This document shows positions 38,267-44,310 of a stretch of 64,000 bases of DNA, piece after piece. Below the pieces are notes generated by a model, which did no database searches, was not told the DNA's origin, and worked only from the letters and a program-made list of their open reading frames with translations. Position numbers and translations under genes: made by a program. How positions within the stretch are numbered: the stretch's first letter is position 1; each line of letters begins with the position of its first letter. Source of the DNA: Gemmatimonadota bacterium (GTDB lineage Bacteria > Gemmatimonadota > Gemmatimonadetes > Longimicrobiales > Gaopeijiaceae); the NCBI GenBank assembly GCA_022826005.1, contig JAJDVT010000011.1, positions 16,221 to 80,220 of the forward strand. The letters are read 5' to 3'.

Positions 38267-40087
38267 CTAACCGGACCCCCCTACCGCCTCATCCGAAGCC
38301 AGCAGCAGCGCCGAAGACTCCGACATTTCCCGGTAGTATGCCACGAACCGCTGTGTCTCCGGTGCGTCGTACGCCGCCAGGTTCTCCGCCCAGCGGTACC
38401 CGATCGGCTGGAACCAGAGTTGGGCGACGATGGTGAAGGGCCCGGCCGCGGGATTCACCGCTACCGAGTAGCGCACCTGGTCGGAGCCGGCCGCGAAGTC
38501 GGGGTCCGAGGTGGCGGTGCCGATGGGGCGGACGCGGGCGTCGGCGCGGGCGGCGTCGAAGCCGTCCGGGAGGATGCGGTTGTCCTTTACCCAGCGTGCC
38601 GCGGACATGAGGCCAGTGGTGACGGTGCCGGATGCATCGACCATCACGCCCTGGTAGACCTGGACCTGGCCGGGTGAGTCGATGGTGGTGTGATGGGGCT
38701 CGTAGCCGGCGCCGTTCTCGTCGTGGTCGTCGCCGGTGACGCTGCCGTCGGGGTTGAGCGCGCCGGATTCGAAGATGAGGCGCCCGGCGGCATCGGTGAC
38801 GGCGACGCGCAGCCAGGCGCGCCGCGACGGGTAGGCGGTGGGGAACTTGTGGCCGGCCTGGTTGCGCACGGTGACGGTGGCGGTGAGGCGGCCGTCCTGC
38901 ACGACGGGGTCGCCGATCCCGATGGTGGCGGTCGCCGTGCGGAGGTGGTCGGCGGTGCGCTCGGCGGCGAGCTCCAGCTCCTGGGGGAGCGCGGTCACGC
39001 CGAGTTCGGCCCGGTAGCGGTTCAGCATCCTCAGCATGAAGAAGTTGCCGCCGCGGAAGACGTGCCGGGAGACCTCGGGGCGGGCCTGTCCGAGCACGCG
39101 CGTCACGGGGACGTCTTCGCCGACCTCGGGCATGTGGCAGTCCTGGCAGCTGTGCTCGCGCGGGCCGCCGTCGGCGTAGTCGCTCGCCTGCCACTCCAGG
39201 AACGGGGCCTGCTCGGGGAAGGGGGGCCCGGATCCGCCGGCTTGTACCGCATGGGTGATTACGGTGTGGCACGACGCGCACAGCCCGGACGATGTGACAT
39301 GCTCGCCCAGCGTGGGGCGGAAGCCGGTCGCCGAATGCATGATCCCGACGCCGCCCTCGTCGGGCTCGAAGGGGCCGAAGACCGGGCGGCCCTCGGGCGG
39401 CGTCTCAGGGGCGATCTCGAAGCGGGCCGTGAAGGTCGCCTCGGTGCCGAGGCCGTCCGGCTGGATCTGATGGCAGAGCGCGCAGGAGACGCCGTCGGCC
39501 GCCAGGGCCGCGTACGGTCCCTCGGCGTCGCCGACCGGCAGGTTCGCGAAGACCTGGCCGGAGCCGCCGTCCTGGATCGCGGCCACGGTGGCCATCGGCA
39601 TATGGCAGCGGGCGCACTCGCCTTCGATGGCGGCCGCCGCTTCGGGATGGTCCATGACTTCGCGCCGGACGGCCGCATGGAAGTACGGGTCGCGAGCGCT
39701 GTTCGCCATCATCGAGGCGCGCCAGTCGAAGCCGATCGAAACATCGGTGCCGTCCTCGGCGGCGACGCCCTTGTGGCAGGCGATGCAGCGGTCGGCGGTG
39801 TGGAAGTTGTCGGCGGGGTCGGCGGCGGCGGAAAGGACGGTCGCGTGGGGCGCGGCCTCGGCAGGGCGTAGAAGCTGCGCGAGGGGCGGGGTCTCCGCGG
39901 TCGCGTCCGCGGGCAACGTTCCCGCCATGGGGAGCGCTACCGAGGTCGTTACTGGGAGGCCTGCCGAGGGCGGCACCGAGGGCGCTACCGACGGCGCTCC
40001 CCCCGCGACCAGTGCACAGCCCGCCAGGCCGACACCGCACGCCGCGGTGAATCTCATCCCCACGAATGCCCGTCTCCTCTTCGACAT
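38267..40087 (-). CDS. Multiheme cytochrome c family protein (5 CxxCH)
   Basis: Start MSKRRRAFVGMRFTAACG (40087). CIACH, CARCH, CALCH, CASCH, CQDCH. Confidence 0.9.
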   Translation of the reverse strand: MSKRRRAFVGMRFTAACGVGLAGCALVAGGAPSVAPSVPPSAGLPVTTSVALPMAGTLPADATAETPPLAQLLRPAEAAPHATVLSAAADPADNFHTADRCIACHKGVAAEDGTDVSIGFDWRASMMANSARDPYFHAAVRREVMDHPEAAAAIEGECARCHMPMATVAAIQDGGSGQVFANLPVGDAEGPYAALAADGVSCALCHQIQPDGLGTEATFTARFEIAPETPPEGRPVFGPFEPDEGGVGIMHSATGFRPTLGEHVTSSGLCASCHTVITHAVQAGGSGPPFPEQAPFLEWQASDYADGGPREHSCQDCHMPEVGEDVPVTRVLGQARPEVSRHVFRGGNFFMLRMLNRYRAELGVTALPQELELAAERTADHLRTATATIGIGDPVVQDGRLTATVTVRNQAGHKFPTAYPSRRAWLRVAVTDAAGRLIFESGALNPDGSVTGDDHDENGAGYEPHHTTIDSPGQVQVYQGVMVDASGTVTTGLMSAARWVKDNRILPDGFDAARADARVRPIGTATSDPDFAAGSDQVRYSVAVNPAAGPFTIVAQLWFQPIGYRWAENLAAYDAPETQRFVAYYREMSESSALLLASDEAVGGSG

Positions 40088-40089
40088 CC

Positions 40090-41319
40090 TCACCACCCCT
40101 CGAAGAAGCCGCCGTCGAACCAGTCCAGCAGCACATAAGCGACCAGCCGCATCGGTCGCGCGTATTCGTTCGCGCCGCTCCCCACCGGCACGAGCACGCC
40201 GATGTTCCCCAGCACATGCTGCCGCGTGTTCAGCGCGACCTGCACCTGGGGAATGAGATCGAACTCCGTCTCCGCCCCCGATTCCAGGTGGTGCTTCGCT
40301 TGCACCTCCACCATCGGGGTCCAGGCCCGTCCCCACTCCCCCTCCGTGAAGGTCGCTCCCAGCACGAAGCGCCCGAACACCTCGTTGGCCGCGTCCTCGT
40401 AGAGCGGCGCTTCAACCCCCCCCTGGGCCTGGATGAAGGCGTCGTTGGGAAGGATCTGCCCGAACGACGCGTACGCCTCAAGCCTGTTGCCGGGCGCGCC
40501 CAGCCCCGCCTCCTCGTCGCCCGTGGCCACGAACACCTCGCCGCCGAGAGAGAAGATCGTGCCAGACGAGGAACTGTGGTACAGCGCGTGCTTCACGCCC
40601 AGCACGATGTCGCCCAGCCCGTGGCCCCCGCCCTCGGCCGCGGCACCGCCGTGGTCGTGATCGTGACCGTCCGATTCGGTGTGCGCTGCCCGCCACCCGT
40701 AGGGGATCACTACCTCGACCTGGCTGCGGGGACCGTAGCGCCGCTCGTAGACGTACGCCCCCATCGCGGCCCCGTCCCCCTCCAGATCCACTCCCGCCTC
40801 CACCACCCACTCGTCCTCCGGATACGCCTTCGTGGTGAGGAGCGGCCGCGGCAGGTTGAGCTCCCCGCGCGGCCAGTTGTCATCGGTGCACAGGCTGCGG
40901 ATGTAGCCCATCACGCGCTCGAGCTGCTCCGCGGTGAGCGCGCCGCGAAACGCCGGCATCATTTCGCTGAAGCCGCGCACCGGCCCGCCCTCGTGCGCCA
41001 CCGCGATCCAGTCCCCGTCGGGCTCGCGCGCGGCGAAGTCGCAGTCGGTGAAGTCAGGCATCTCCTCCTCGAAGGCCAGCAGGGAGGGCTCGACCCCGGT
41101 GCCGTCGAGGCCGTGGCAGTTGGCGCAGGAGTTGGCGTAGATGGCCTCGCCGGAAGCGTCGGCGAGGTCGGCGCCGTTGACGGCGTAGGGAAGCTGGGCG
41201 GATGAGGGGGCAGCGAAGCAGAGCTGCAGGGCCCCGAGCGCGAAGGCGCTCAACCGGAGGGACGAAACCGTCGAAACGACGGCCGGTATGAATTGGCCCG
41301 GCGCTGATCCCCTCATCAC
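40090..41319 (-). CDS. Cytochrome c domain fused to an outer-membrane beta-barrel-like region
   Basis: IYANSCANCHGLDGTGVEP...MMPAFRGALTAEQLERVMGYIRSLC followed by alternating barrel-like strands to the C-terminus (DWFDGGFFEGW); His-rich DGHDHDHGG loop. Confidence 0.82.
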   Translation of the reverse strand: MMRGSAPGQFIPAVVSTVSSLRLSAFALGALQLCFAAPSSAQLPYAVNGADLADASGEAIYANSCANCHGLDGTGVEPSLLAFEEEMPDFTDCDFAAREPDGDWIAVAHEGGPVRGFSEMMPAFRGALTAEQLERVMGYIRSLCTDDNWPRGELNLPRPLLTTKAYPEDEWVVEAGVDLEGDGAAMGAYVYERRYGPRSQVEVVIPYGWRAAHTESDGHDHDHGGAAAEGGGHGLGDIVLGVKHALYHSSSSGTIFSLGGEVFVATGDEEAGLGAPGNRLEAYASFGQILPNDAFIQAQGGVEAPLYEDAANEVFGRFVLGATFTEGEWGRAWTPMVEVQAKHHLESGAETEFDLIPQVQVALNTRQHVLGNIGVLVPVGSGANEYARPMRLVAYVLLDWFDGGFFEGW

Positions 41320-41626: not shown

Positions 41627-42778
41627 TCAGCCGACCTTCCGCGCCATCGCGTCGAACAACGCGCCGTGCACCTCGAGAATCCGATCCGTCTGGCGGGCGT
41701 TGGGTTGCAGCGTCTCCTCGCCGCGGTTGAAGGTGCCTCCGAGGAGCACGCCGTCGGCGCGCGGGAACATGTATTGACTGCCGCCGCGCGAGAAGCGCCC
41801 GCCCCCGATGGTCAGGTAGTCGAGCTCCGGTTGGGGACGCAGGACCACGAGTTGCCCCTTCACGGGCACCACACCGTCGTCGCCGAAGAGATCGCGGGCG
41901 CCGAGTCCGGTGCAGTTGACGATTACCGGTTCGGCCAGCCCCGCCAGCTGTCCCCGGTCGGCGATCTCCCCCACAACCACGCGTCCCCCCGCAACCCGGA
42001 AGTCCCGCATCAGCGCACGGAGGTAGCGAGGCGGCTCGATGAACATGGTTACCACCCGGCGGGCGAAGCGGGTGGGGAAGGGGTGTTCGTCGCCTTCGAG
42101 GTCTTCCAACTCGGGGTAGAGGTCGCGGATGCGGGCCATGTAGCCGGGGATGCCTGGCGGACGCTCCGACAGGAAGTAGTTGTCTATCCAGCGCACGCCG
42201 TAGTCGGGGCCGACCAGGGTTTGGAAGTGGCGGTGGGCGCGCCGCGAGGCGTCCTCGAACTGGACGCCGAAGGGGCCGTGCAGGGAGTCCGCGACGGAGG
42301 TGGGGGACCACTGAGCGCCGGCGATGTTCGATGTCGTGTCCGGCGGCAGGTCACGGGCGTAGATGGTGACAGTGCGGCCGCGGCGCTGCAGAAGACGTGC
42401 TGTAGCCAGCCCCACAGCGCCTGCGCCGATGACCGCCACGTCCCCCTCCCTCCCTCGCCCCACCCGCCCGCCCCCCGTCACCAGGTCGGCGGCCATGTCA
42501 GCCGTCCCCCAGGATAGGGTGACGCCCCCGCCCCCGTGCCCGTAGTTGTGCACGAGCAGCTTGCCCGCGAACGACTCGGCCCGCACCACGAATCCCTCCG
42601 ACCGGTAAGGTCTGAGCCCCACATCGACCCGGATCACTCGCTCCGGCGAAATGCGCGCGGGCCGGATCCCGGCGAAGGTGTCTTCCCACCGCCGCCGGCC
42701 CGCAACGGACGCGCATCCAGCCGCCAGCCCGCCCGCCAGCGCACCGGCCGTCAGCCTCAGCCAGCGGCGGCGGTCCAT
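41627..42778 (-). CDS. FAD-dependent oxidoreductase, D-amino-acid-oxidase-like with permuted motif order
   Basis: Start MDRRRWLRLTAGALAGGLAAGC (42778). VGLRPYRSEGFVVRAE..LLVHNYGHGGGGVTLSWG precedes VAVIGAGAVGLATARLL; later VNCTGLGARDLFGDDGVVPVKGQLVVL. Confidence 0.88.
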   Translation of the reverse strand: MDRRRWLRLTAGALAGGLAAGCASVAGRRRWEDTFAGIRPARISPERVIRVDVGLRPYRSEGFVVRAESFAGKLLVHNYGHGGGGVTLSWGTADMAADLVTGGGRVGRGREGDVAVIGAGAVGLATARLLQRRGRTVTIYARDLPPDTTSNIAGAQWSPTSVADSLHGPFGVQFEDASRRAHRHFQTLVGPDYGVRWIDNYFLSERPPGIPGYMARIRDLYPELEDLEGDEHPFPTRFARRVVTMFIEPPRYLRALMRDFRVAGGRVVVGEIADRGQLAGLAEPVIVNCTGLGARDLFGDDGVVPVKGQLVVLRPQPELDYLTIGGGRFSRGGSQYMFPRADGVLLGGTFNRGEETLQPNARQTDRILEVHGALFDAMARKVG

Positions 42779-42906: not shown

Positions 42907-43365
42907 CTACAGAATCTCCAGCTCCGTCGTGATTTCGATGCATCTGTGTAGCGTCCGGTACACCGGACAGCGCATGGGGTGCAGATCGTAGGCCCGGTTG
43001 ATCGCTTCCTCGTCCGCCCCCGCCGCCCGCAGCTGGTATTTGACGTGAATCTTGCGCACGACGAGCACGCCTTCCTCCTTCCCGACCCCTCCCTTCACTC
43101 CCGCGGCCAGCCTTCCGTCCGAAGCGTCGATCCCGCGTGCCTCCAGCACGCCTCCGAAGGTGCCGACGAGTCAGCCGCCGGTCGCGGCGATCACGTAGTC
43201 GAGGGTTGTGGTGGTCTCGGTCTTGAGCCGGACGCCGTAATGCTCCGCGATGGCGCCGTGAACGCCGAATGCGACGGGCCCGTCGTGGGCCGGGAGCCAG
43301 GCGAGCCGGTTGGGACCGCGGACGCGTTCGATCCGGATGTCCGCTTCGTAGACGATGTCGCTCAT
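42907..43365 (-). CDS. OsmC-family protein with in-frame UGA at the first catalytic Cys position (probable selenoprotein)
   Basis: Two same-frame ORFs separated by TGA (43171-43173): MSDIVYEADIRIERV..TTTTLDYVIAATGG[U]LVGTFGGVLEARGIDASDGRLAAGVKG..DLHPMRCPVYRTLHRCIEITTELEIL. 153 codons including the stop. Confidence 0.78.
43135..43151 (-). promoter_or_regulatory. SECIS-like hairpin downstream of the UGA
   Basis: GCGTGC-TGGAG-GCACGC: perfect 6-bp stem, 5-nt loop with G at loop position 2; loop starts 26 nt after the UGA. Confidence 0.6.
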
Positions 43366-43443: not shown

Positions 43444-44004
43444 TCAGCCGGGCCACAGCCACCCGAAGATGGCACCGGTGAGCAGCGCGTAGGCGAGTCC
43501 GTCGGCGGCGTGCTTGAAGGCGACGCGCGCGGGGAGGCCGAACCAGATGCACTCCTGGAAGCCGATGAAGCCGTGCGCCATGAACGCTGCCGTGCCGGTG
43601 ACCTGGAAGACCTTCAGGAAGTCAGTGCCGACCGGCAGCACCGCGGACCCCAGGTAGCCCACAAACAGGACGACCACGAGGTGCAGCAGCAGCGACTTGA
43701 GGATCGATGACCTCATGTCCAGCACTGCCCTGGAGTCGCGCACGCGCAGGATGCCGACCGGGCCCGTGTGCACCCGCGCCTTGTAGGCATCGGATTGTTC
43801 CCCTTCGGGGCCGGCCCAGGGGAAGTAGTACATCCCGGGTCCGGACGTGGTCCGCCGAACGGCGTCCATCAGGGCGTCCTGGTCGTCCGGGGGAGAGAAG
43901 TCGTTCTTGTGGTGCGGCATCAGCATCCATACGATGGCGCTCACAATGAACACGGCGCCGCCGGCGATCAGGATGGGTGCCCAGAGGGCGGAAAGGGTTA
44001 CCAT
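43444..44004 (-). CDS. Hypothetical integral membrane protein
   Basis: Start MVTLSALWAPILIAGGAVFIVSAIVWMLMPHHKNDF (44004); several TM segments. Confidence 0.75.
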   Translation of the reverse strand: MVTLSALWAPILIAGGAVFIVSAIVWMLMPHHKNDFSPPDDQDALMDAVRRTTSGPGMYYFPWAGPEGEQSDAYKARVHTGPVGILRVRDSRAVLDMRSSILKSLLLHLVVVLFVGYLGSAVLPVGTDFLKVFQVTGTAAFMAHGFIGFQECIWFGLPARVAFKHAADGLAYALLTGAIFGWLWPG

Positions 44005-44310
44005 GGATTGGATGGTCCGGCGTTGCAGGGTGTGAGGTTGCGCTTGGGGGGTCCTGCCCTCCCGGGTCCGTCCGGGACCGGCCCGTGACAATGGACCAGG
44101 GGCTGGTCGGTGGCGATCCGCGCAGGATTGGACCCCCGGCAATCCGGTCAGGACTGGCCCGCAGTGATACGGCACAATAGTGTGGCAGGGGATCGGGGGC
44201 CAGTTTCATGGGGCTTACGGCGTTGGCGGACGCCGAAACGAAGCAGCGCAATGCGGACGGATCCCGATCGTCCGTGCGAAGTGATCACAATGTAAAGAGT
44301 ACTTTACAAT

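Follow-up and report, generated by a model that had tools for sequence, protein, structure and literature searches.

The window analysed here (the whole stretch of DNA, 64,000 nucleotides) carries on its minus strand, at 42907..43365, a gene for an OsmC-like protein of 152 amino acids that is predicted to contain selenocysteine (Sec). The frame runs from an ATG at 43365 to a TAG at 42907, and its only interruption is a TGA at 43171..43173 (minus strand), codon 65, in the context ...LDYVIAATGG[U]LVGTFGGVLEARGI. A table-11 ORF caller splits the gene at this codon into two fragments; the initial annotation had taken the two ORFs for a single frame parted by one TGA, and the frame and its translation bear this out. 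Residue 133, a Cys encoded by TGT at 42967..42969 (minus strand), sits in the motif MRCPVYRTL, and a candidate SECIS hairpin lies at 43135..43151 (minus strand). Both flanking genes, which were also followed by synteny, have the same orientation. Downstream is an FAD-dependent oxidoreductase (41627..42778, minus strand; Pfam DAO, 1.9e-39) and upstream a predicted membrane protein without a Pfam family (43444..44175, minus strand). The oxidoreductase probably starts at the ATG at 42778, and its N terminus, with an RR-containing Tat-like stretch and a possible lipobox Cys, points to a probable Tat-type signal peptide; the ORF caller places the start at 42943, inside the OsmC gene, probably mistakenly. 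Further along the same strand, a large ORF (38267-41319) with several CxxCH haem-binding motifs, resembling a multihaem cytochrome, adjoins a gene in which CANCHG occurs once, the two being probably a respiratory or electron-transfer cluster.

Read through the UGA, the product matches the Pfam OsmC domain PF02566 with 48.5 bits (E 1.3e-12; gathering score 27.5), and an AlphaFold2 model built from a 33-sequence alignment reached a mean pLDDT of 93.6. The best PDB matches of this model are OsmC-like proteins, namely E. coli YhfA (1ml8), E. coli OsmC (1nye) and Ohr, with E values down to 5e-9. When the profile was aligned to the 1ml8 chain, the UGA column coincided with the Cys of AAGGCSA, and the second Cys with residue 133. 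The same correspondence was found with eleven Cys-type OsmC/YhfA-like proteins of the same order, which have their first Cys in the UGA column in every case and their second Cys in the matching column in all except L176. Residue 133, presumably the resolving Cys, is also invariant in the 33-member alignment. The placement of the UGA at the first redox-active Cys of OsmC-like proteins, and the retention of the second Cys, both put forward in the initial annotation, are thus confirmed by these alignments.

By analogy with these proteins, the most likely activity would be the reduction of hydroperoxides, with Sec65 attacking and Cys133 resolving, and other electrophiles are possible substrates. 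In OsmC and Ohr, the peroxidatic role belongs to the first Cys; here it would fall to Sec65, which a hydroperoxide or similar electrophile would oxidise, and Cys133 would resolve the oxidised Sec65 through a selenylsulfide. A dithiol or another reductant would then regenerate the enzyme (the reducing dithiol of Ohr is dihydrolipoamide). Invariant Arg20 and Asp56 may replace the Arg/Glu pair of Ohr, a guess based on their position. The activities of proteins with the OsmC fold differ, and PMC4069020 reports a hydroperoxide-resistance-type protein without peroxidase activity. It is therefore conceivable, if on balance doubtful, that the Sec protein has another main job, acting on a persulfide, a disulfide or some other electrophile, or serving a membrane- or FAD-enzyme-linked process of the kind hinted at by its neighbours. 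This would fit with the scores for curated peroxiredoxin-type OsmC families, which are far below cut-off (TIGR03562, 19.5 bits of the 85.8 required), and with the retention of the flanking genes within the genus. However, the fold and the arrangement of the two redox residues agree with OsmC/YhfA/Ohr, and the neighbours are not retained beyond the genus and the nearest genera. Adjacency of the oxidoreductase gene to the Sec-OsmC gene is confined to the genus, where many members show it, and the membrane-protein gene is kept upstream in most of the sampled members and in two neighbouring genera; with conservation limited to this range, an operon was rejected. Hydroperoxide reduction is the function that we prefer for the Sec protein.

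The hairpin 3' of the UGA has the sequence GCGUGC-UGGAG-GCACGC (stem 43151-43146/43140-43135; loop 43145-43141, UGGAG), with 25 nt between the UGA and the loop and a G as the second loop base. As the initial annotation had proposed, this geometry is within the range expected for bacterial SECIS elements (loop of 3-9 nt, stem of 4-16 bp, a G in the first two loop positions and a spacing of 16-37 nt; PMC13188914). The stem forms in a 60-nt segment, and also when the UGA-proximal bases are omitted. By itself, however, such a hairpin does not rise above chance, as 48 TGA sites in the 64-kb window, this one included, satisfy the rule (counting in-frame TGAs with an open frame on either side and stems of 6 bp or more). 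Folded in isolation, the 47-nt RNA also gains no stability over its shuffled versions (z -0.14). The hairpin was consequently rejected as stand-alone evidence, and the case for a SECIS rests on the conservation and covariation of the stem. An Rfam search of the window gave no match. All six pairs are intact in 116 of 117 distinct genes, versus ca. 7% expected when synonymous codons are re-drawn in the same genes. Compensatory changes occur, U-A/C-G and A-U/G-C. In clade A, to which the window gene belongs, the stem is GCGUGC/GCACGC within the genus and GCGCGC/GCGCGC in most genes outside it. In clade B, represented in the same genome by a paralogue, it is GCGCAC/GUGCGC, and there a Val/Ala swap over the loop (GVLEAR vs GALEVR) preserves the pairing. 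Among 28 sequences, 99.4% of the pair cells are standard, two pairs vary in both partners, and the covariation score is higher than those of all 500 shuffles, a control inflated by relatedness, and of all slid versions, which retain the relatedness. The SECIS just 3' of the UGA is under constraint at the RNA level.

The source genome, a Gemmatimonadota MAG of 4.85 Mb (96.8% complete) in which the window lies on contig C51, contains the whole selenocysteine system. Those of its near relatives that bear names are Gemmatimonadota, in part assigned to Longimicrobiales. The search for selA, selB, selC and selD suggested in the initial annotation recovered all four: a tRNA-Sec (selC) with a UCA anticodon (77.9 bits; gathering score 47), selB (297 bits; cut-off 242), selA (483 bits; cut-off 268) and selD (377 bits; cut-off 125). 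The selD gene (L020, G000:C71:75102-76019, minus strand) is a selenoprotein gene too and reads HGAGUACK through its own TGA; a Sec-containing form of SelD is usual. From established biochemistry, SelB together with Sec-tRNA(Sec) would recognise the hairpin and insert Sec at residue 65. Across 158 genomes of the order, selA was found in 90 of the 94 that have the UGA gene and in 20 of the 64 that do not (table 90/4/20/44; Fisher p 6e-19, a value that is only nominal because the genomes are related). The other four of these 94, in which selA gave no match, are assemblies 73-89% complete, and all of them have a tRNA-Sec at 69-78 bits, compared to best scores of 44-50 bits in three comparison genomes without selA. 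Either selA or tRNA-Sec is therefore present in each of the 94 order genomes bearing the TGA gene. In the 20 genomes with selA and no UGA-OsmC (e.g., G051, G113 and G153), the Sec system must be kept for other selenoproteins. A UGA read as some other amino acid, by a change of code or a suppressor tRNA, would equally leave the TGA open in frame at residue 65, but this seems highly improbable: the upstream neighbour in the same window terminates with TGA, the genome has tRNA-Sec, selA, selB and selD, the gene tracks this machinery across the order, the SECIS is conserved, and relatives have a Cys column at the site.

We retrieved homologues from public species genomes using peptide patterns that exclude residue 65. 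All 80 that were recovered, from Gemmatimonadota, Acidobacteriota, Acidimicrobiia and Calditrichota, have TGA at the residue-65 position. The initial annotation had asked whether this column aligns with Cys in most homologues and with Sec in some of them; it aligns with the Cys of OsmC/YhfA, and the homologues retrieved are all UGA. The clade B paralogue (L002:1501-1959, G000:C69:19749-20207), which is 33% identical, has a TGA at the equivalent residue and its own compensated SECIS. Within the order, 94 of the 158 genomes have the UGA form of one or both Sec-OsmC genes, and the single additional hit, in G143, is to a distantly related OsmC with Cys. A search for a close Cys orthologue in 36 order genomes lacking the UGA form (25 without selA and 11 with it) yielded only distant OsmC/YhfA-type Cys proteins with at most 38 bits. 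A search of plasmid records gave no match. A one-off sequencing error is excluded because independent assemblies carry the TGA at the homologous site. Purifying selection is evident downstream of the UGA in a comparison with eleven relatives (dN/dS 0.15-0.45, versus 0.06-0.20 upstream). The least credible explanation is a pseudogene or truncated OsmC, with the TGA as a real stop and a decaying downstream part, as the two fragments of the ORF caller and the somewhat higher dN/dS 3' of the UGA would have it, but the same TGA is shared by every homologue, from four or more phyla, and by the paralogue, the frame is intact up to the same C terminus, and the downstream part remains constrained with its second Cys invariant. 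Conservation across assemblies and phyla led us to reject both the pseudogene and the code change. The single frame through the UGA, the constrained SECIS, the complete Sec system and the UGA kept in the homologues therefore indicate that this is almost certainly an intact selenoprotein gene of the OsmC fold whose UGA is decoded as Sec, Sec itself being a prediction. The probable selenoprotein of the initial annotation is, to this extent, well supported.

OsmC-like selenoproteins have been reported before, with three sequences from the Sargasso Sea (PMC1088965) and five from the GOS survey (PMC2398784), and are included in recent reviews (PMC9312934, PMC13188914). Their published redox motif is UxxT (PMC1088965, PMC2398784, PMC13188914). 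Neither Gemmatimonadota nor Acidobacteriota is mentioned in PMC2398784, PMC9312934 or PMC13188914. The sequences studied here have instead UxxxT in all 33 aligned members, and the NCBIfam model NF041052 (OsmC_like_Se, cut-off 95 bits) gives the window protein 13.1 bits and the paralogue 33.4, the best match among the 33 alignment members having an E of 8.6e-10. Only one protein of the order exceeds this cut-off, and it has Cys, in the motif FCYMT (CxxT). It should be noted that L173 and L174 (G055 and G056), with OsmC-like domains carrying FCYMT, are the only proteins of the order near or over the cut-off, and that G055 has two matches in tandem within one 420-aa frame. NF041052 probably represents the published UxxT Sec-OsmC group, whose sequences are considered here by their description. 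Given the UxxxT motif and a score of 13 bits where 95 are required, the window protein probably belongs to a separate, uncatalogued Sec-OsmC clade, set apart from the published group by the described motif and the NF041052 score. The initial annotation had placed it in the known Sec-OsmC category. This stands insofar as it is a Sec-containing OsmC protein but not for the catalogued UxxT/NF041052 group, from which motif and score separate it. Sec-OsmC proteins were already known as a kind, and what is new is a member, probably from a clade outside the catalogued group.

The tree joins clades A and B with support of 93/88, or 96/91 once the longest branches are dropped. The alternative in which clade A groups with the OsmC Cys proteins survived an AU test (p 0.097), so a single Sec origin of both clades is likely rather than proven. 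Our overall picture, towards which we lean with some reserve, is that A (at least four phyla) and B (so far this order) are sister groups of an unrecognised UxxxT selenoprotein clade in which Sec is essentially fixed. Genomes without a Sec system would have lost the gene, with no Cys replacement, and the protein would be one of those that maintain the use of Sec in Gemmatimonadota and Acidobacteriota. A redox protein widespread in uncultured members of these two phyla is probably missing from databases or truncated in them, because standard-code callers halve the gene and the curated Sec-OsmC model fails to reach the clade. It also offers a clean case for studying the lack of reversion to Cys in some selenoproteins, since the occurrence of its gene tracks the Sec machinery and no close Cys counterpart turned up.

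Compared with E. coli OsmC and YhfA (1nye and 1ml8), the window protein has the same fold and the same two redox positions, but these proteins have Cys where it would have Sec, and identity in the structural alignments is only ca. 13-20%. With Ohr, it has in common the fold class and the pair of attacking and resolving residues. Ohr, however, uses Cys, and the match of the window clade to TIGR03561 is weak (5 of 33 members, best E 0.022). The Sargasso and GOS Sec-OsmC proteins (COG1765/PF02566) resemble it in the OsmC domain, in a predicted Sec at the first redox Cys position and in a SECIS located just downstream. In contrast, their motif has two residues between Sec and Thr, while the window clade has three (ULVGT, ULLGT and UMMGT).
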